Source: a virus
Strand: one strand, 5' to 3'
Virus record (IMG/VR): IMGVR_UViG_3300034198_013174
Location: 1-25,375 of that record
Length of the DNA stretch: 25,375 nucleotides
Each line of letters starts with the position of its first letter. Position 1 is the stretch's first letter. Both the position numbers and the translations under genes were made by a program. This document shows positions 3,001 to 22,146 of this stretch, one piece after another. The notes below the pieces were generated by a model that saw nothing but the letters and a program-made list of their open reading frames with translations, did no database searches and was not told where the DNA came from.

Positions 3001-5106
3001 CCAACAATTACTATTGCAGATTTGTCAGCAAGATTTGTTGCAATTAGCCCAACAACAGCAGGTGCAAACGTTGCACCAACAGGTGTAGCAGGTGCATGGA
3101 ACTCAATGACAACACCAAGTGCAGGTTACAATGCTATTGTATACGGTAGCGGCCAATATGTTGTTGTAGGCGGAACAGCTGGCGCTGGTATTATTGCAAG
3201 TAGCGGTGACGGATCTAGCTGGAGTGCAAGAACAGTTCCAGCGGCTGCCGCAACTCAGTATTTCAGTGCAGTTGCGTACGGTTCAACAGGTACAGGACTT
3301 TCAGGCAACACCACAACTGGATTGTTTATAGCTATTCCTACATATGGTAATATTCCTGTAACAAGTACAAACGGTAGCACATGGGCTATTCCACAAACTA
3401 GTGGTGGTTCAAACGTAACTCTTCCTGCCAGTTTAGCATGGAGTAGCATTGCCTACGGTAATGGACGCTTTATAGCTATTGCTAGCAACAGCACAAGTGT
3501 TGCTTATACAATCAACGGTGGAGGTTCATGGAACTTGGCAACAGTTGGTGGCGGTGCAGGACTTCCAGGTGTGTATAGCTGGTCAAGTATTGCTTACGGT
3601 GAAGGACAATTTGTAGTAATTGCCGCAAACAGCAACGTAAGTGCTACAAGTTGGGACGGTATCAACTGGACTGTACAGACATTACCAGCAACACAAAACT
3701 GGAGTAGCATAACATTTGGTAATCCATTAGCTACTACTATTGGATACAACCCATTGTTTGTAGCTGTAGCAAATACAGCAGGTACAACAGCGGCAGTAAT
3801 CCACACTGGTGCAACTCCGCTAGGTCGTGTAAAAGTATTAAGTAACGCTGTGAGTGAAGTACGTATGGTTGAACCAGGTAGCGGCTTTGCTAAAGGTAAC
3901 GTTACAGCAACTACAGCTGGTACTAACATAATCACAGCAGATAACATTGAAGGTTTGCAAGCCAACCAGCCAATTGAATTCAACCTAGTTGGTTCAGGCG
4001 GATTGACTGTACAAACTACATACTATGTAATCGGCTCAAGTATTACTACAACAGTTGCTCCGGCAGGTACTTTCCAGGTAGCTACTACTTCGGGCGGCAC
4101 AACACCTGTAACACTAACAACTACAGCACCAACAGGTATGATATATACCACTGGTCCAATAGTAACTATTACTGATCCAAACCGTATTAATGCGGCATTG
4201 GTTCGTGTGAGAACAGGCGACGGTGTACTTGGTAATCCTAGCTTCCCTAACAGAGGCGCGGCAAACGCAACAGCAACAGCAAGTCAAGCAGGCGACGGCT
4301 ATAGTGATATCTACCAAACTAGTACTTACATCAACGTAAGTAACTTGTATCAAGCTCCAACAGCTGGTGCAAACGTACAGTTTGCATCAATTTCAAATGC
4401 TTGGTACAAATTGGTTGCAGTAACTAACTTGTTAGGTGTTGCAGGTAACTATACAGCTACCTTCCAAATTAATCCTGGATTGAGTGTATATCTTGCACCT
4501 GCTACTGGTAACTTAATTACTACAAGATTGAAGTACAGTCAAGTACGCTTGACTGGACATGACTTCTTGTACATTGGTACTGGTAACCAAACATTGACAA
4601 ACTATCCTAACGTTGTTCCAAGTAATGCAATATCTGCTAATCAGACATTGAACAATATTGGTGGACGTACATTCTTTACAAGTACTGACCAAGACGGTAA
4701 CTTTAACGTTGGTAACTTGTTTGGAGTACAACAAGCAACTGGTACTGCAAGTTTGAATGCTAGCGCATTTAACTTGGCTGGATTGCAAAGTTTGACATTG
4801 GGATCTGTTACAGTAGGTATTGGTTCAGCTACGATTACATCGTTTAGTACAGACCCGTATTTTACTGCCAATAGTGACAATATTGTTCCAACACAAAAAG
4901 CTATCAAGAGCTATATTACAGCTCAGATAGGTGGCGGTTCGAGCAGTTTGAACGTAAATACACTAACGGCGGGTGTGATATTTGTTGGTAACAACCAAAT
5001 TTATAACACCACTGGATATCAACAAATTTACGTAAGCAGTAAAATGCTATTTACAGGTGGAATTGATGGGGCACCCGTTGCTCTTACATTCTTCGCACAA
5101 AGATAA
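1..5106 (+). CDS. giant tail-fibre/adhesin-like virion structural protein (5' partial)
   Basis: The frame is open from the first base, so this gene starts upstream of the window. A GTG at 61 is an internal codon, not a convincing start. About 1,701 residues are visible, extremely rich in Ser, Thr, Gly and Ala with short beta-strand-like repeats and almost no Cys. Roughly 2218-3784 holds several copies of a block of the form SSIAYGxGxFVAIA followed by xNGxxW, which resembles BNR/sialidase-type beta-propeller blades. This block is interrupted by modules of the type GxGYTxxPTITI (2371-2640 and 2911-3020). The C-terminal part, with GGRTFFTSTDQDGNFNVG (about 4660-4710) and VPTQKAIKSYI (about 4886-4920), looks like a conserved end of large virion proteins of aquatic T4-like phages. 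I infer a distal tail or fibre protein that contacts the host surface. The exact T4 counterpart cannot be named. Two small structural genes follow on the same strand. Confidence 0.8.
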   Translation, partial: NAGINYTNSVPTVNGSGYNAVAFQDEFRDAGVFETRLIDPNNTGLTGGTSYVSAVNVGQVNARGPGYQLIAAADSALSNTYNGMNMLITAGTGVGQYATVLTYDNTSKYAQIIRPTFKTLSVTASTTTTATTSSSAIIATYAGQYPTLVAPVVASGTFVAGMFLTSSGTITAGTYITAINSGTITGATITSSTYSSTGTIGSTITGSGTASSPWVATITGMSSTSGFVVGAQITATNGTGTLYGSTPTSVIVTSIPSTTSITYSVIGGTIPTAGTVTNVQQTILSGSAFSNLLPGMVLSGGSVIASYVAGQVTATGTALATATFTGSIGTSTLTLTSFTVGSVYTIQPGQFVGQISGIPAGTHVTAVNPATGVITINTTLYGAVSGSTSTYTAGGAGTYALTANSFTTITGTPTTGTQTLLNIAQTQVAATITGTQNTLTVSSNATLYNTMPIYLGTAVAPLAGVAIGSSGAITFTSTTTALPANTQVVVTGANVGTGVVATGTFFVAASPTPTATGVTLLTALSGGTAISTTAGTVITSGNLASVNIGASGNLTFTALGAALPAGTPIVISGSNSGGGSIANGTYYVAATPTPTTSAVTLVTTSGGSTSPTTTSGTPTGLTFAFSLVNPLTFTYTLTAPFGLTSYSTYYVQGVTNAAGVPGTTFSVTTTSNGTSPTAVNTITGQSVSLYAAGWDHIVPGTAINTTTDLTTAYIIEPAVSYTSPGYTQAARTLATSASYTGVAYGSGNYVAISTGATTTQYSTNGRTWSNGGALPSTASWNAVTYGGGQGAQATVTLGGFGGSGAVLTANVVGGQVTSITIVSGGFNYNTVPTISITPVGAGAGATAICTVLNGAITTVTMTINGSGYTSGANVTVVTSSVSSVTPITWGKNYGYNSTAPSVTLSAPFSGTVWSSSGSGTSGSYYYFLNTGVTPNVTNYYQATSTGTFTTSGPTHTSGTVANGTVNLLYVGTQAVVTPTLTNNGISSYTVTVAGFGYTTVPTITIADLSARFVAISPTTAGANVAPTGVAGAWNSMTTPSAGYNAIVYGSGQYVVVGGTAGAGIIASSGDGSSWSARTVPAAAATQYFSAVAYGSTGTGLSGNTTTGLFIAIPTYGNIPVTSTNGSTWAIPQTSGGSNVTLPASLAWSSIAYGNGRFIAIASNSTSVAYTINGGGSWNLATVGGGAGLPGVYSWSSIAYGEGQFVVIAANSNVSATSWDGINWTVQTLPATQNWSSITFGNPLATTIGYNPLFVAVANTAGTTAAVIHTGATPLGRVKVLSNAVSEVRMVEPGSGFAKGNVTATTAGTNIITADNIEGLQANQPIEFNLVGSGGLTVQTTYYVIGSSITTTVAPAGTFQVATTSGGTTPVTLTTTAPTGMIYTTGPIVTITDPNRINAALVRVRTGDGVLGNPSFPNRGAANATATASQAGDGYSDIYQTSTYINVSNLYQAPTAGANVQFASISNAWYKLVAVTNLLGVAGNYTATFQINPGLSVYLAPATGNLITTRLKYSQVRLTGHDFLYIGTGNQTLTNYPNVVPSNAISANQTLNNIGGRTFFTSTDQDGNFNVGNLFGVQQATGTASLNASAFNLAGLQSLTLGSVTVGIGSATITSFSTDPYFTANSDNIVPTQKAIKSYITAQIGGGSSSLNVNTLTAGVIFVGNNQIYNTTGYQQIYVSSKMLFTGGIDGAPVALTFFAQR
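634..840 (+). repeat. shared fibre module, copy 1
   Basis: About 69 residues running from SPWVATITGM through VVGAQITATNGTG to GGTIPTAGTVTN. The same pattern recurs in the S74-terminated fibre gene at 6430-6630. It looks like a mobile or duplicated fibre domain. Confidence 0.7.
2218..3784 (+). repeat. BNR/beta-propeller-like repeat array inside the giant fibre gene
   Basis: At least five degenerate copies of a 45-60 residue unit are visible. Each has an AYGxGxF/YVAI strand and then a T/SxDG or NG turn ending in W. Clear copies lie at about 2218-2301, 3130-3222, 3442-3531, 3583-3669 and 3703-3784. The array is split by a roughly 250-residue insertion of different glycine-rich modules. The repeats are visible at protein level. 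The propeller fold is inferred. Confidence 0.6.
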
Positions 5107-5502: not shown

Positions 5503-7440
5503 ATGGCACGTTATAATACATCAGCAGTTGCTACACTTAGTTCACAAACTGTTATATCGACTCCAAGTCAGGGTCTAGTAACAGAATTGATAGGAAGCCC
5601 ACCATATGCGGTGACTATTCCAGATCCAACTATCTACTATGGTGCAACACAAACATTTTACAACAACTCGGGCGGTGTTGTTACACTAAACACACCTGCC
5701 GGTACGTTCACTGGACCAGGCAGTTCAGGCTCAACAGGTTTGGCTATGCCAAACCAAAGTGTTGTGGTATTAGCATCTGATACAACCAAGTATGTAATTG
5801 TGTCATTTGATGGCGGCCCAACTTATACTCAAACAGGTAACGGTAACAGTAGTACCTATGCATTGTTGATGAACGGCGACCTAGTACAAAGTGCATCCAC
5901 AATGAACTTGGCCAATACCAACACTACTACAGTAAACGCTTTTGGCGCGGCAACCAGTGTTAACATTGGTGCAAGTACTGGTACAACTACTATTAACAAC
6001 AACTTGTATGTTAAAGGTGGTATCGTAACAGTTAACTCAAGTAGTGTACTAGTCGAAGATAAAAATATTGAAATTGGTTTCATTAACCCTATCAACTTTG
6101 GTTCAGGTACTGTAACAACTATTGGTGGATCTATTACAGGTTCAACAACATTCCTTTCAATTGCAGGTACAAAAATTCCATCAGGTTATACTGGTACAGT
6201 GACTAGTGTCTCACAGTTTAGTACAAGCGGTAACGGTACAGGCGCAACATTTAACATTACAATTACCGGTGCTGGTACAACCTATACTGGTGTCACTACA
6301 ATTACTATCAACCAAGGCGGTTCAAACTATGCACTTGGTGATACAATCACTATTGGCGGTGCAGTATTTGGTGGTACAAGTTCAAACGGTACTAACAACT
6401 TGACATTTGTACTTGGTAACGTAAACGGTAGCCCATGGCTTGCCACTGTTACTGGTTTGACAACCACTACTAACTTGGTTGTAGGTAGTGCAATTTCAGC
6501 AACAAACGGTACTGGTAGTTTTGGTTCAGGTAATACTTCACAGTTGATTTCAAGTGTACCTAGCGGTACTAGTGTTATTGTTGTAGTTACAGGTGGTACA
6601 ACTCCGGTAGCAGGAACTGTTTCAAATATTACACCGGGTTCTAACGATGCTTATGCAAACGGTGGTGGTATTAAACTATACGGTTCAACTAACAAATTCT
6701 TTGTTTGGACCAATACTGCAACAGGCCCGTCAAGCGGTAACGTTAGTCAGCCATCATGGCAAACATCAGAAGGTATTAGTTTTAATACTTCTGTAGCTAG
6801 TAACTTTGGTATACAAACATATCCAGGACAAGGTACAGGTTTCAACTTCTTGACTAACGGTGTTACCAATGGTACAGTTAACCTTGCTACCAATGCCGTT
6901 ACGCTGAACTTAGGTACCGCATCTACAACAACTAACATTGGTGTTTCTGGTGGTACGATGACACTAGGTGCAACTACACTTACTCTAAGTGGTACTACTA
7001 CAATCAATGCTAGTAGTAGCCCGACATTCTCAGCAACTGGTTTGTGGGGACAATGGTCAAAAGCAAGTTTTGGTACAACAGCAGATCCAGGCGGTGGCGC
7101 CATTCTTGCAACTGGTAACATTACAGCTTACTACTCAGACGATAGACTAAAAACACGTTTGGGCAATATTGAAAATGCTCTTGAAAAATTAGAAACATTG
7201 ACTGGATTTTACTATGAAGCAAACGATCTTGCTCAAAGTTTAGGGTATGAAGCAACTCGCGAAGTTGGTGTGTCAGCTCAAGATGTACACAAGATCCTGC
7301 CAGAAATTGTAAAACCTGCACCTATTGACGCTAAGTACATGACAATTCATTACGAAAAGTTAACACCATTAGTAATTGAAGCGGTTAAGGAACTAAGTGC
7401 AATGGTAAAAGAGTTGAAAGCCAAGATTGATAAGGAATAA
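5503..7440 (+). CDS. tail fibre protein with C-terminal S74 intramolecular chaperone domain
   Basis: A 645-residue fibre. Residues 1-540 are Ser/Thr/Gly/Asn-rich beta repeats. They include a segment (NTTTVNAFGAATSVNIGAS and the later TLNLGTASTTTNIGVSGG) typical of trimeric fibre shafts, plus a module shared with the giant upstream gene. Residues 545-645 match the Peptidase_S74 family: SDDRLKTRLG, then GFYYEAN, then VGVSAQDVHKILPEIV, then YEKLTPLVIEAVKEL and a terminal coiled coil. In this family the chaperone trimerises the fibre and is cut off by itself just before the Ser-Asp pair, here Ser545-Asp546. Both residues and the following Arg-Leu-Lys are present, so autocleavage is expected. The stop is directly followed by the Asn-Cys-rich gene, whose Shine-Dalgarno (AAGGA) lies inside the end of this gene. 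Confidence 0.88.
   Translation: MARYNTSAVATLSSQTVISTPSQGLVTELIGSPPYAVTIPDPTIYYGATQTFYNNSGGVVTLNTPAGTFTGPGSSGSTGLAMPNQSVVVLASDTTKYVIVSFDGGPTYTQTGNGNSSTYALLMNGDLVQSASTMNLANTNTTTVNAFGAATSVNIGASTGTTTINNNLYVKGGIVTVNSSSVLVEDKNIEIGFINPINFGSGTVTTIGGSITGSTTFLSIAGTKIPSGYTGTVTSVSQFSTSGNGTGATFNITITGAGTTYTGVTTITINQGGSNYALGDTITIGGAVFGGTSSNGTNNLTFVLGNVNGSPWLATVTGLTTTTNLVVGSAISATNGTGSFGSGNTSQLISSVPSGTSVIVVVTGGTTPVAGTVSNITPGSNDAYANGGGIKLYGSTNKFFVWTNTATGPSSGNVSQPSWQTSEGISFNTSVASNFGIQTYPGQGTGFNFLTNGVTNGTVNLATNAVTLNLGTASTTTNIGVSGGTMTLGATTLTLSGTTTINASSSPTFSATGLWGQWSKASFGTTADPGGGAILATGNITAYYSDDRLKTRLGNIENALEKLETLTGFYYEANDLAQSLGYEATREVGVSAQDVHKILPEIVKPAPIDAKYMTIHYEKLTPLVIEAVKELSAMVKELKAKIDKE
6430..6630 (+). repeat. 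shared fibre module, copy 2
   Basis: About 67 residues from SPWLATVTGL through VVGSAISATNGTG to GGTTPVAGTVSN. They align along their length with residues encoded at 634-840 in the giant fibre gene. Confidence 0.7.
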
Positions 7441-7442
7441 TA

Positions 7443-7964
7443 ATGTCAGATCAAACTAACGATAACAAGCCAGTTGATCCTAATATTGTTAATCCTTTAA
7501 CTTTACCTGGCTCAAACATCAGCTTTGCTAATATTTCTAGCGAAACTGGTTATCCTCTCACTAATATGGGTTTGGGATTTTTGCATGGTTATGTTGCACC
7601 CAGTTTGGGCGGCTATTTTCAAAATGCACCTAACGGCGGCAACTGTGTAGGTTATAATAGTAACTGCGGATCTAGTCCGAGACCCACATTCCGCGACACT
7701 TATCCTGATTTGGCTGAATTTAGAAATTTAACTTATTTCAACAGTCAGAATAAAGGACAATGTAATAACGGTAATTGTACCAACAATAACTGTAATTGCG
7801 GAAATATTAACTGCTTCAATTGTACTATCAATGGTCATATTAACTGTCAGAACTGTGACGGACAAGCATGGTTACAAGCAAATTGTAACTGTGCCTGCAC
7901 AATGAATTGCAACTACACTAGCTACAGCGTAGCATGTAATTGCAACTGTAACTGTAATTGTTAA
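7443..7964 (+). CDS. Asn-Cys-rich protein, candidate RiPP-like precursor or fibre-tip component
   Basis: A 173-residue protein I do not recognise. Residues 1-65 are an ordinary, Cys-free N-terminal part with NISSETGYPLTNMGLGFLHG. From residue 67 on it carries 19 cysteines, at 68, 75, 107, 112, 117, 119, 124, 127, 135, 138, 148, 150, 152, 156, 165, 167, 169, 171 and 173. Sixteen of these directly follow Asn, and the protein ends in four NC pairs with Cys as the last residue. No zinc-finger spacing or secretion signal is evident. The start is supported by AAGGA 8-12 bases upstream. A radical SAM/SPASM enzyme begins 17 bases after the stop, so the Cys-rich tail is a plausible substrate for thioether or other radical-based crosslinks. 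Alternatives are a metal-binding tail or a disulfide-rich tip protein of the virion. The precursor role is inference from gene order. Confidence 0.75.
   Translation: MSDQTNDNKPVDPNIVNPLTLPGSNISFANISSETGYPLTNMGLGFLHGYVAPSLGGYFQNAPNGGNCVGYNSNCGSSPRPTFRDTYPDLAEFRNLTYFNSQNKGQCNNGNCTNNNCNCGNINCFNCTINGHINCQNCDGQAWLQANCNCACTMNCNYTSYSVACNCNCNCNC
7641..7961 (+). repeat. Asn-Cys (AAY-TGY) codon repeat tract
   Basis: Repeated AAY TGY codon pairs, densest at 7764-7961 and ending in an uninterrupted run of NC pairs. The mix of AAC/AAT and TGC/TGT codons shows it is not a simple DNA slippage tract, so selection at protein level is likely. Confidence 0.75.
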
Positions 7965-7981
7965 TAGACTAAAGGTAACCC

Positions 7982-9439
7982 ATGAAATTTGAAATATTGG
8001 CATCACGGAACAAAGACGACGAAAAGATATTTTACTACGATAACCAAACAAATGTACTCAGCGATGAAACTGGATTTGTTTACGAGTATCCTAAAGCCCT
8101 AGCAGGAGTTGTACATACTCATGTGCAACAACCTTATACTAGTTTTGATAAGGATCGTCCTCTTAAAAAATCTAAACTTGCTCGCATAGTAAAAATTCAG
8201 ATGGGTCTTAGTTGCAACTATAGTTGTGATTATTGTAGTCAAAAGTTTGTAGAACGTCCAAGAGAAACTACTCCGAAAGATATTGAAAACTTTATGGAGT
8301 TGTTTAATAATTTAGAATTTGACGAACAGCAAGGACTTAAAGTAGAGTTCTGGGGCGGTGAACCTTTTGTCTACTGGAAAACTATGAAACCGCTAGCCGA
8401 AGCGATTGCAGATCGCTTTGAAAGCTGGCAGAAAAAACCACAATTCAGTGTTATCACTAACGGTAGTTTATTAACAGAAGAAATCTGTGCGTGGTTGTAT
8501 AGTATGAATTTTGGTGTAGCCATCAGTCATGATGGCCCAGGACAACATGTTCGAGGTCCAGATCCTTTTGAAGATCCTAAGAAACGTGAAATTGTTTTAG
8601 ATCTTTATCAGATCTTACGTCCATTAGACCGTATTAGTTTTAACAGTATGTTAAACAGCAAAAATACTAGTCGTAAAGCAATTTATGATTGGTTTGTAGA
8701 ATTCACCAATGACCCAAGTGTTATCCTAGGTGAAGGTGCGTTTGTCGATGCATATGATGCAGATGGGCTAGAAAATTCCATGAAGACCAAAGCTGAACAT
8801 TTTGCTTTTAGACAGCGTGCCTTTGGAGAAATTTATGCGTCAAATGGCGACATTGGTTTTACCGGTATACTACAAAAAGTAGACGATTTTACTGAAGCTG
8901 TACTCACACATAAGAGTGCAGAATTCTTAGGTCAAAAGTGTGGAATGGATGACGAAAGTATCATTGCATTTGATCTAAAAGGTAATGTTATTACTTGCCA
9001 GAATGTTAGTGCATTAGAAATTGGCAAAAATGGTGAGTCACACTTGGGTGGCAATCTAGCTGATTTAAACAGTGTGGAAATTAAAACATCTACACATTGG
9101 AGCAATCGTAAAGAATGTAGCGGTTGTCCAGTACTACATATTTGTAAAGGAGCATGTATGTTCCTAGATGGCGAGTATTGGACTGCAAGTTGCAATAACG
9201 CATACAGCGATGCGATTCCTTTATTTGCTACAAGTATTATGAAAATTACAAACGGGTATATTCCTTTAACCATAAAAGCTGAAGGATTACCTACAGAACG
9301 TCAGGATATCTTTGGGACCATGATGAAACATGAAGAATGGGCACAGAAAAAGATGATTCCTATCAAAGTTGTTAGCGAAAAAGTAGCTGTTATTGACAAT
9401 GTAGAAGTCTACGGACAAAGCACTGTGATAAATAGTTAA
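7982..9439 (+). CDS. radical SAM/SPASM domain peptide-modifying enzyme
   Basis: A 485-residue enzyme. The radical SAM motif CX3CX2C is at Cys78, Cys82 and Cys85 (GLSCNYSCDYC) and binds the 4Fe-4S cluster that cleaves S-adenosylmethionine. The GGEP motif that contacts SAM is at 125-128. The SPASM region fits the family pattern exactly: Cys320-x13-Gly334-x4-Cys339, then Cys379-x2-Cys382-x5-Cys388-x3-Cys392, then Cys404. This can hold two auxiliary 4Fe-4S clusters. Enzymes of this architecture mature ribosomal peptides (sactipeptides, ranthipeptides, mycofactocin, PQQ) or act on protein residues as anaerobic sulfatase maturases. The nearest candidate substrate is the Asn-Cys-rich protein directly upstream. 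The first 70 residues form an N-terminal domain whose role I cannot assign. AAAGG precedes the start. The family is certain. Substrate and chemistry are inferred. Confidence 0.92.
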   Translation: MKFEILASRNKDDEKIFYYDNQTNVLSDETGFVYEYPKALAGVVHTHVQQPYTSFDKDRPLKKSKLARIVKIQMGLSCNYSCDYCSQKFVERPRETTPKDIENFMELFNNLEFDEQQGLKVEFWGGEPFVYWKTMKPLAEAIADRFESWQKKPQFSVITNGSLLTEEICAWLYSMNFGVAISHDGPGQHVRGPDPFEDPKKREIVLDLYQILRPLDRISFNSMLNSKNTSRKAIYDWFVEFTNDPSVILGEGAFVDAYDADGLENSMKTKAEHFAFRQRAFGEIYASNGDIGFTGILQKVDDFTEAVLTHKSAEFLGQKCGMDDESIIAFDLKGNVITCQNVSALEIGKNGESHLGGNLADLNSVEIKTSTHWSNRKECSGCPVLHICKGACMFLDGEYWTASCNNAYSDAIPLFATSIMKITNGYIPLTIKAEGLPTERQDIFGTMMKHEEWAQKKMIPIKVVSEKVAVIDNVEVYGQSTVINS

Positions 9440-9461
9440 AGAGAACACAAGGAGCCTTAGC

Positions 9462-10427
9462 ATGAATTTATATCTATCTGTTGGAACTGCTGAACCAACA
9501 TTTGCGTTGGATGTTACTATATCAGAAACAGGATTGACTTATAAAACATATCCTGCATACCCTATCGAAGAACTAAAAAAAGCATGGAAACAACAGGTAG
9601 AAAATCCAATGTTTGCACCTATGAACATGCCCACTCCTGATGAAAAACCATTATGGACTACAGACAAATTTGCTGTCTATGAGCATACTACTGTAACACA
9701 TAATGATCCAGTAAAAGGAACTGTAGTTATTTCTCATCAAGAAAGTAATTCAGTAGATTTTGATGGCATCACCAAATTGCCCGACTTCAGCGATCATGCA
9801 ATATATCAAATTTACACACCAGACAGCCCTATAAATATAGTTGAGAAATCCAGTTTGCCTTTGACCTATTCTAGGCAAGTGGCAAACAGATCAGCTGTTG
9901 CTGTGATACACAACTCCGTTGCTCATACGGCCACTAGTAAACTTAATCCGTTTTCCTGGGCCAATCTAGGAAAAAATAATGCAATGATTGCTATTGTTGT
10001 ACCATTAGCAGATATGCCACCTTCAGAGTGGGATATTGTAGTTTCTATAGCAGAAGAAGGCTTGGCCAGAATTAATGCTCCAGTACAACCGACTCCATTA
10101 ACTGTAGCTAAAGGTATGCTATTACATACACACATGCCAAAAATATGGTTTAAAAATAAAACTGCTGAAGTAACAGCAGATAATTATGTAGATTTAGAAT
10201 TTTTCTTAGGAACAGCAACAGGTGCTCCATTAGATACTGAACATACTGCAATAGTTTATTTAAAAACTACAATGGGTGTGCTCAATAAGCAACAAGTTAA
10301 AACTGTTGATGGTAAAGGAACAGTTCGTTTAATTGCTAGTCATTTAGAAGCAGGGGATATAGCAACTGTTAGTTGTGGATTCCAGTATTGGTCAGGAACA
10401 GACGACTGTGTTGTTACAGTAAAATAA
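9462..10427 (+). CDS. unknown protein, third gene of the radical SAM cluster, possible C-terminal Ig-like domain
   Basis: A 321-residue protein I do not recognise. It has a strong AAGGAG Shine-Dalgarno 8 bases before the start and follows the radical SAM gene by 22 bases, so it belongs to the same transcript. Residues 1-150 are mixed alpha/beta (ISETGLTYKTYPAYPIEELK, EKPLWTTDKFAVYEH). Residues about 225-321 alternate beta strands (AEVTADNYVDLEFFLGTATG, HTAIVYLKTTMG, CVVTVK) and end like an Ig or big-like domain. No signal peptide, membrane segment or catalytic motif is seen. A bidirectional terminator begins at its stop codon. It could be a virion protein that presents or receives the modified Cys-rich protein, or a fibre-assembly partner. 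That is guesswork from position only. Confidence 0.7.
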   Translation: MNLYLSVGTAEPTFALDVTISETGLTYKTYPAYPIEELKKAWKQQVENPMFAPMNMPTPDEKPLWTTDKFAVYEHTTVTHNDPVKGTVVISHQESNSVDFDGITKLPDFSDHAIYQIYTPDSPINIVEKSSLPLTYSRQVANRSAVAVIHNSVAHTATSKLNPFSWANLGKNNAMIAIVVPLADMPPSEWDIVVSIAEEGLARINAPVQPTPLTVAKGMLLHTHMPKIWFKNKTAEVTADNYVDLEFFLGTATGAPLDTEHTAIVYLKTTMGVLNKQQVKTVDGKGTVRLIASHLEAGDIATVSCGFQYWSGTDDCVVTVK

Positions 10428-10451
10428 AAAAGCACCGCAAGGTGCTTTTTT
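10426..10451. terminator. bidirectional intrinsic terminator with GCAA tetraloop
   Basis: An A6-GCACC stem pairs with GGTGC-T6 around a GCAA loop, exactly between two convergent genes. The flanking A and T runs make it work in both directions. Confidence 0.85.
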
Positions 10452-10456
10452 AATGA

Positions 10457-14652: not shown

Positions 14653-15177
14653 ATGAGAAAAGTAATTGATAATTTTTTACCTCTGGACGATCTTGAATGT
14701 TTACAATCAACCTTATTAGGATTTAATAACGGTTTTCCTTGGCAATTATCAGTAGTGGTTACACCTGATGCAATATTAGAATGTGACGAATTAAACAACT
14801 GGCAACTATGCCATTATTTTTATAACAAAGGTACTAGCCTTTCAAAAAATCCAACAGTTACACTGATAACTCCCCTTATAGAAAGATTACAACCTGAGAC
14901 TTTAATAAGAGTCAAAGCTAATTTAAACCCCAGAACAGATAAAATTAATATACACGCATATCATACAGATATACCAAATGAACAAGTTACCGACTTGTGT
15001 AAAACTGCTGTATTTTATGTAAACACTAACGATGGTTATACCATTTTTGAAGACGATGGCGAAAAAGTTCCAAGTCTTGCCAATAGACTTGTTATGTTTG
15101 ATGCAACTCAATCTCATAGTGGTACAACTTGCACAAATGAGCAATTTAGATGTGTAATTAATATCAATTGGATCTAG
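14653..15177 (+). CDS. 2OG-Fe(II) oxygenase, prolyl-hydroxylase-like
   Basis: A 174-residue protein. The iron-binding triad is visible: His104 and Asp106 in AYHTDI, and His155 in NRLVMFDATQSHSG. Arg166 sits in the position that binds the 2-oxoglutarate carboxylate. Such small oxygenases are frequent in T4-like phages of aquatic bacteria. Known members of the superfamily hydroxylate proline or other residues, or nucleic acid bases, using O2 and 2-oxoglutarate. The substrate here is unknown. Its place between the neck gene gp13 and nucleotide metabolism gives no clear hint, though hydroxylation of a virion or host protein is possible. No Shine-Dalgarno precedes the ATG, which is preceded by an AT-rich box and lies inside a small inverted repeat. 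Confidence 0.85.
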   Translation: MRKVIDNFLPLDDLECLQSTLLGFNNGFPWQLSVVVTPDAILECDELNNWQLCHYFYNKGTSLSKNPTVTLITPLIERLQPETLIRVKANLNPRTDKINIHAYHTDIPNEQVTDLCKTAVFYVNTNDGYTIFEDDGEKVPSLANRLVMFDATQSHSGTTCTNEQFRCVININWI

Positions 15178-21355: not shown

Positions 21356-21718
21356 ATGATTAATAACTTACCTAGCATCACAAATAGTCCAGTAGCAGTG
21401 AAACAATTCTTTGACAATTACTTTACTGGTACTGTAACATTTCCTGCAAATCAAATTGATGCCACAACTGCATTTTTTACTAAACGTGGATTTGATAAAG
21501 TTAGTGCGGCATCTACTGCAATAATATTGCTTAATCAAGCCAAGGCAGAAAATGTCAGTGTATTCACATTATTAGACAAATTCAAAAGTCTTACAGATGT
21601 GCAACTCAATCAGATCATTGTACAAGTTTTAAATGCATACAGAGAAAAAACTAGTTTACTAGGATATAGAACTGCTGTTCAAACTGATACATTTGAAGCT
21701 CGTAATATTTTAGTATAA
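21356..21718 (+). CDS. small conserved-looking protein of unknown function in the head-tail operon
   Basis: A 120-residue protein. It has a short strand segment (YFTGTVTFPANQIDATTAFF) followed by a helical body (FDKVSAASTAIILLNQAKAE, NVSVFTLLDKFKSLTDVQLN, QIIVQVLNAYREKTSLLGYR). I recall small proteins of this kind beside tube or portal genes in T4-like cyanophages, where they are listed as structural, but I cannot assign a role. It starts 2 bases after the tube-fold gene and its stop overlaps the gp4 start as TAATG, so it is translated as part of the same operon. No signal or membrane segment is visible. Confidence 0.65.
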   Translation: MINNLPSITNSPVAVKQFFDNYFTGTVTFPANQIDATTAFFTKRGFDKVSAASTAIILLNQAKAENVSVFTLLDKFKSLTDVQLNQIIVQVLNAYREKTSLLGYRTAVQTDTFEARNILV

Positions 21719-22146
21719 TGGCCAGTAAATTTGCTCGCGGTAAGTTTACCATGACCGCTCCTGAAAAATATGTAGGAACTAAAATGCCTACCTATCGTAG
21801 TAGCTGGGAGCTTACATTCATGCGATTTTGCGATACAAATCCTAGTATTTTAAAATGGGCTAGTGAAGCAATACAAATTCCTTACAAAGATCCGCTAACT
21901 GGTAAAAGTACAGTTTATGTACCTGATTTTTTCATACAGTATGTAGACAAGCAAGGTCGCATGCTTACAGAATTAATAGAAATAAAACCCAGTAGTCAAC
22001 AAATATTAGAACGTGTAGGAAAGAATAAATTTAACCAAATGCAGTTTGTTAAAAATCAAGCCAAATGGGCCGCCGCAGGTGCTTGGTGCAAACAGCAAGG
22101 ATTACGATTCAGAATACTGAACGAAAATGATATATTCCACGTTTGA
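21718..22146 (+). CDS. gp4: head completion nuclease, T4 gp4-like
   Basis: A 142-residue protein, close to the T4 length of about 150. YRSSWELTFMRFCDTNPSI, WASEAIQIPYKDPLTGKSTV, YVPDFFIQYVD and TELIEIKPSSQ follow the gp4 head-completion family, which has a TnsA-like PD-(D/E)xK nuclease fold. Glu31, Asp70, Glu88 and Lys90 are the expected active-site residues, and all are present. In T4, gp4 acts after packaging to trim or seal the DNA end so that tails can join. Here it lies next to the small terminase gene, which fits that role. It is coupled to the preceding gene by a TAATG overlap. Confidence 0.85.
   Translation: MASKFARGKFTMTAPEKYVGTKMPTYRSSWELTFMRFCDTNPSILKWASEAIQIPYKDPLTGKSTVYVPDFFIQYVDKQGRMLTELIEIKPSSQQILERVGKNKFNQMQFVKNQAKWAAAGAWCKQQGLRFRILNENDIFHV

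Follow-up and report, generated by a model that had tools for sequence, protein, structure and literature searches.

Why would a phage keep a radical S-adenosylmethionine (SAM) enzyme directly behind its tail-fibre genes? The question is raised by IMG/VR record IMGVR_UViG_3300034198_013174, of which positions 1-25,375 were analysed (hereafter the window, 25,375 nucleotides). It contains a three-gene unit that encodes a protein rich in asparagine and cysteine (the Asn-Cys protein), a radical SAM/SPASM enzyme and a protein of 321 amino acids. From comparisons of the sequences with those of related loci, we consider it likely that the unit produces a tail-fibre tip that is cross-linked by the radical SAM enzyme, corresponding to a gp38-like adhesin with thioether bonds.

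The radical SAM/SPASM enzyme and its Asn-Cys-rich partner

The gene content of the contig is that of a T4-type myovirus, with a gp15-like stabiliser, a contractile sheath and, near the end of the window, a reading frame judged by eye to be terminase-like. The unit consists of three open reading frames on the plus strand, located at 7443-7964 (173 amino acids, the Asn-Cys protein), 7982-9439 (485 amino acids, the enzyme) and 9462-10427 (321 amino acids). The first two are separated by 17 bases (7965-7981), and the Asn-Cys gene starts 2 bases past the stop codon of a gp37-like tail-fibre gene (5503-7440, plus strand), which has a C-terminal S74 intramolecular chaperone domain (PF13884, E-value 7.7e-10) and matches long-tail-fibre PHROGs with E-values down to 5.9e-25. 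At its other end, the unit is closed by a symmetric hairpin at 10425-10452, identified in a terminator scan and common to the convergent genes on the minus strand. The initial annotation had described a Cys-rich gene followed by a radical SAM gene with CX3CX2C, GGEP and SPASM motifs, situated directly after fibre genes and ending at a terminator, and all of these elements are present. The ratio of nonsynonymous to synonymous substitution rates (dN/dS) against close relatives is about 0.05-0.07 for the Asn-Cys gene, 0.03 for the enzyme gene and 0.07-0.21 for the 321-amino acid gene, and all three thus appear to be maintained by purifying selection.

The radical SAM motif of the enzyme corresponds to C78-X3-C82-X2-C85, with GGEP at position 125, and the SPASM set comprises C320-X13-G334-X4-C339, C379-X2-C382-X5-C388-X3-C392 and C404. 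The radical SAM cysteines, GGEP and the seven SPASM cysteines are invariant in 17 relatives. TIGR04085, a model for SPASM domains of the kind that the initial annotation had proposed as a check, scores 32.9 bits against a cut-off of 27, and the radical SAM domain PF04055 is recognised with an E-value of 1e-8. The enzyme belongs to phrog_1802 (E-value 9.5e-63), a family without a functional description. It is a complete radical SAM/SPASM protein with intact catalytic motifs, and it is predicted to be functional because all SPASM cysteines are invariant and the dN/dS ratio is only about 0.03.

The most similar NCBIfam models are PapB (NF047865), with a score of 75.8 bits against a cut-off of 340, and secondly QhpD (TIGR03906), with 71 bits against 453 in an alignment limited to the radical SAM core. 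PapB and related ranthipeptide maturases form non-alpha thioethers from Cys to Asp or Glu through S-Cbeta/gamma bonds, and another radical SAM enzyme makes a Cys-Asn S-Cbeta bond (PMC11002830). PapB also tolerates Cys-Xn-Asp spacings with n from 0 (PMC11048544). Similar to PapB, the enzyme studied here is a SPASM radical SAM protein encoded beside a Cys-rich candidate substrate. However, the PapB substrate is short and contains repeated CX3D motifs, whereas the partners in our loci are putative fibre-tip proteins of 130-370 amino acids in which the repeats are of the type Xaa-Cys and a CX3D motif occurs once, as the nearly invariant C135-X3-D139. QhpD joins Cys to Asp or Glu within a protein subunit, and thereby resembles the proposed system in that a structural subunit is cross-linked via Cys thioethers, but its target is a subunit of a bacterial enzyme, quinohemoprotein amine dehydrogenase, and not part of a virion. 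A possible precedent for radical SAM chemistry at Asn-Cys is provided by the enteropeptins, in which Cys is reportedly bound to the alpha-carbon of the neighbouring Asn to form a thiomorpholine; these are small bacterial peptides, unlike the protein in the window, and we take them as a lead only.

The Asn-Cys protein contains an N-terminal module at approximately residues 19-60 and a Cys-rich module at residues 105-173, with extra cysteines at 68 and 75, and every one of its 19 cysteines is placed at residue 68 or later. It has 16 Asn-Cys dipeptides, a number that was not reached in any of 20,000 shuffles of the sequence (shuffle mean 4.0). The residue preceding the cysteine is strictly limited: among the 1009 cysteines of 58 relatives, it is Asn in 714 cases, Ala in 161, Asp in 57 and Gln in 54, corresponding to 986 of the 1009 (98%). 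The entropy at this position is 1.4 bits, as compared to 2.8-3.4 bits at other offsets, despite Gly, Ser, Thr and Tyr being common in the Cys-rich region. This rule points to chemistry at Xaa-Cys and suggests that the preceding residue is either the bonding partner used by the enzyme or a recognition element. The AlphaFold2 prediction is poor, with a predicted local distance difference test (pLDDT) score of 53; the N-terminal module is fairly modelled (pLDDT 81-86) and the greater part of the Cys-rich stretch lacks a prediction, for which reason we make no claim about the fold. A PHROGs search with the Cys-rich family gave marginal matches only, and a tblastn search against cultured phages with the Asn-Cys protein of the window and two immunoglobulin (Ig)-like proteins gave no match.

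A chain of this composition might instead be held together by metal ions or disulfides, in which case the radical SAM enzyme would modify it in another manner, for example by epimerisation or by C-C bonds at Tyr or Trp. CXC-rich motifs can indeed bind metals, a Tyr and a Trp are conserved within the Cys-rich module, and hydroxylases and halogenases are encoded at related loci. Nevertheless, both the restriction to Asn, Ala, Asp and Gln before Cys and the similarity to thioether-forming SPASM enzymes fit better with chemistry at the cysteines, and we regard this alternative as unlikely.

To examine the pairing of the two genes, we used searches from both sides. A search with the enzyme sequence identified 30 viral loci, and a profile of 17 enzyme sequences recovered 547 confirmed relatives in IMG/VR, of which the best 80 were kept. 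Independently, a profile of the Asn-Cys protein recovered 128 relatives, of which the best 80 were also kept, and the viral pairing counts cover the nearer relatives selected in this manner. The enzyme profile also identified 30 loci in bacterial genome contigs, including Polynucleobacter, Limnohabitans, Burkholderia paludis, Paraburkholderia, Rhodobacteraceae, Halomonas and several metagenome-assembled genomes. Removal of near-identical enzymes left 105 viral or prophage loci, 84 of which had been found via the enzyme and 21 via the Asn-Cys protein.

An Asn-Cys protein or a fibre tail of the NCNC type is located near the enzyme in 100 of these 105 loci, and the distance between them is within 100 bases in 66 of the 100 pairs. 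For the loci found via the enzyme, the count is 79 of 84, and three of the misses (L114, L154 and L165) are due to contig ends. Conversely, the enzyme is present in all 21 non-redundant loci found via the Asn-Cys protein and in 76 of 77 such loci in the full set, where the exception (L059) ends at a contig edge. Comparison of the loci thus strongly supports the pairing, and the two-way counts rule out a random adjacency of the genes. They also bear out the suggestion in the initial annotation that a maturase and a putative Cys-rich substrate are paired in a fibre locus; in these loci, relatives of the Asn-Cys gene that consistently lack the enzyme were not seen. As a separate observation, a decayed and frame-broken radical SAM gene is located near a fibre-like protein ending in NCNCDRNCGC in Polynucleobacter necessarius (L139).

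Placement of the Asn-Cys module at the fibre tip

In the window, and in loci L002/L143, L004/L145 and L006/L147, the Asn-Cys module is encoded by a separate small gene right after the S74 fibre gene. In L156/L082 (7318-7989 in L156), the module ends with NCNCACFW and continues in the same frame into an S74 domain, such that the Trp abuts the S74 start. S74 domains self-cleave off, and the Asn-Cys module would therefore form the mature C-terminus in these proteins. Locus L124 encodes a collagen-type fibre (PF01391, E-value 3.5e-43) with a C-terminal NCNCNCACDCC, and the module is also C-terminal in the fibre-like proteins of L116, L118-L120, L125, L126 and L140 and in a protein of L153 that holds Gly-rich as well as Asn-Cys motifs. 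In the Achromobacter phages JWF and 2-1 and in B. paludis MSh1, a fibre-like protein has NCNC-type repeats followed by a Hint domain, and the module also precedes a Hint domain in Halomonas. The repeats run directly into this intein-like domain, whose first Cys follows them, in the fibre-like proteins of L034 (6679-8127), L121 (7778-9253) and L142 (6627-7961), and C-terminal thioester chemistry is possible in these fusions.

The N-terminal module weakly resembles post-fibre proteins of other phages. In both Vibrio phage BUCT194 and Pseudomonas phage Cygsa01, it matches small genes located directly past a fibre or fibre-like gene, and the Cygsa01 protein carries poly-Gly stretches reminiscent of gp38 tips. 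The C-terminal domain of the long form of the Asn-Cys protein recurs in a Synechococcus phage protein that adjoins a fibre gene. Taken across lineages, the positions and fusions strongly support a placement of the Asn-Cys module at the fibre tip.

The tip adhesins of T2-type phages, gp38, contain hypervariable parts and Gly-rich motifs (PMC12892980). Like gp38 of PP01 and S16, which is a small, receptor-binding tip product of a gp37-type fibre, the Asn-Cys protein is encoded directly after the distal fibre gene. It differs in that it is Cys-rich rather than Gly-rich and has a radical SAM partner, and the likeness is one of gene position.

The initial annotation had left a choice between a virion or fibre-tip protein and a free modified peptide, and the fusions at the fibre C-termini agree with the former. 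A secreted or intracellular peptide that resembles a ribosomally synthesised and post-translationally modified peptide (RiPP), made during infection and acting on the host or on competitors, would account for a gene order like that in RiPP clusters and for the 130-170 amino acids of the short form. However, the module adjoins fibre genes and is fused in frame to S74 chaperone, collagen and Hint domains, and the recurrent neighbour families include no recognisable exporter or peptidase. Since several lineages carry the module as a domain of their virion fibres, a released peptide is improbable.

We infer that the enzyme acts on the Asn-Cys protein, that it forms thioethers and that the product has a role in adsorption. 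The protein would serve as a gp38-like distal adhesin or, where fused, as the tip domain at the C-terminus of the fibre. The enzyme would use 5'-deoxyadenosyl radicals to link the sulfur atoms of Cys with carbon atoms of nearby residues; the likeliest partners are the Asn, Ala, Asp or Gln that precedes each Cys, or other residues in the vicinity. Such cross-links would stiffen an otherwise flexible Cys-rich chain, giving the virion an exposed tip that is rigid and protected from oxidation. Related phages probably modify this tip further, either by halogenation of a C-terminal Trp or by hydroxylation.

Accessory genes around the pair

The 321-amino acid protein belongs to a family for which 20 members were aligned, and the AlphaFold2 model has a pLDDT of 85 and a predicted template modelling score (pTM) of 0.83. 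Its C-terminal part is an Ig-like domain of the Big-1 type, with matches to intimin D0, and the full chain matches unnamed phage proteins. The family is present in only about 23 of the 105 loci and its gene is therefore accessory, probably encoding a fibre-associated or structural protein, whereas the Asn-Cys protein is the sole constant partner of the enzyme in the sampled loci. The occurrence of the family rules it out as the main partner of the enzyme. Of what the initial annotation had proposed, the pairing in a fibre locus stands, a released peptide is disfavoured, and the third gene is not an obligatory part of the unit.

It might be argued that the enzyme acts on another protein, such as one from the host or the Ig-like product, with the Asn-Cys protein being merely a frequent neighbour, given that a gene of the Ig-like type is located downstream of the enzyme in the clade of the window and upstream of it in prophages. 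With the Ig-like family missing from most loci and the Asn-Cys partner nearly universal, this is quite improbable. Formylglycine formation of the kind performed by anaerobic sulfatase-maturating enzymes (anSME), which is suggested by the deposited annotation of JWF and a distant anSME similarity, is highly improbable and sulfatase maturation, also named as an alternative at the outset, is rejected, since TIGR03942 scores 52.2 bits against a cut-off of 349 and the motif [CS]x[PA]xR is found in 0 of the 58 partners.

Recurrent neighbours of the pair include 2-oxoglutarate (2OG)-Fe(II) oxygenases, proteins of the Asp/Asn beta-hydroxylase and flavin halogenase families, desaturase-like proteins and radical SAM proteins with a weak B12-binding match. 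In L143, the closest relative of the window (enzyme identity 93%), the homologue of the 321-amino acid gene is immediately followed by a halogenase-family gene; the window lacks one at this position. Trp-halogenase-family genes are located beside the pair in L143 (10468-11634), L145 (10409-11620) and the L176 region, and the partner has a C-terminal Trp in 12 of 16 cases. Of the short-form proteins whose flanks are complete, 12 end in Trp, and a Trp-halogenase-family gene is located near all 12 (Fisher p 1.6e-5). In whole contigs, 10 records were positive for a halogenase match, which adjoins the enzyme in 9 of them (positions compared by hand). We consider the coupling between halogenase and Trp tail to be a lead, not proof.

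Several other observations were made in these regions. L176 (5996-7522) and 14 other loci encode, near the pair, an additional radical SAM protein, which has a weak match for B12 binding and could be a methyltransferase. In L198, a protein at 3497-4615 near a partner with 31 cysteines contains an SGGVDS motif like that of a PP-loop (asparagine-synthetase-like by eye, without a Pfam match). Locus L174 (11477-12043) encodes a member of a recurrent 181-amino acid family of the long-form clade, which in this case has an internal Cys cluster (CADCTVEKFCAGECQC). The window itself has a weak match to a 2OG-Fe(II) oxygenase at 14653-15177 (PF13640, E-value 0.0035, below the cut-off), 5 kb from the unit, and a TnsA-like nuclease domain at 21718-22146 (PF08722, E-value 6.3e-22) among the tail genes, which may belong to a head-completion-type protein.

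Implications for the fibre tips of phages

Several findings weigh against a cross-linked tip that is further tailored by neighbouring enzymes. The enzyme scores far under the cut-off of every named maturase, so that the thioether bond is putative. Two of the bacterial-genome loci, L123 and L129, encode the enzyme without a recognisable Asn-Cys protein and are real misses. The matches of the N-terminal module to post-fibre proteins are weak (E-values of about 0.01). In the enzyme tree, the Trp tail changes 2 times and the halogenase 4 times, so the association between them reflects few independent events, and the clade of the window contains halogenases without a Trp tail. Many 2OG oxygenases are encoded near the locus but also far away in the same phage contigs, and their association with the pair was for this reason not treated as principal evidence.

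In many freshwater phages and in some prophages, the receptor-contacting tip is probably rebuilt chemically after translation. More tentatively, and somewhat less likely to hold than not in its full extent, such tailoring may be widespread and combine Xaa-Cys thioether rings with the action of halogenases on the C-terminal Trp, Asp/Asn beta-hydroxylases, 2OG oxygenases and B12-type radical SAM enzymes on the same tip, such that the receptor-binding surface would be rebuilt chemically in a manner unseen in the genome sequence. Although the enzyme class and the tip position are each known, we found no description of the two combined in a virion within the searched literature, which excluded preprints and most subscription papers; the initial annotation likewise named no such phage system.

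If the proposed explanation is correct, phages would employ RiPP-type radical chemistry to make the host-contacting part of the virion, adding a new layer to the maturation of phage proteins. Receptor binding would then be harder to predict from sequence alone, and the more than 500 relatives of the enzyme would provide a family of cross-linking enzymes for large protein domains. The retention of halogenase, hydroxylase and radical SAM genes beside the fibre genes of these phages would likewise be explained; such genes are otherwise usually called auxiliary metabolic genes.

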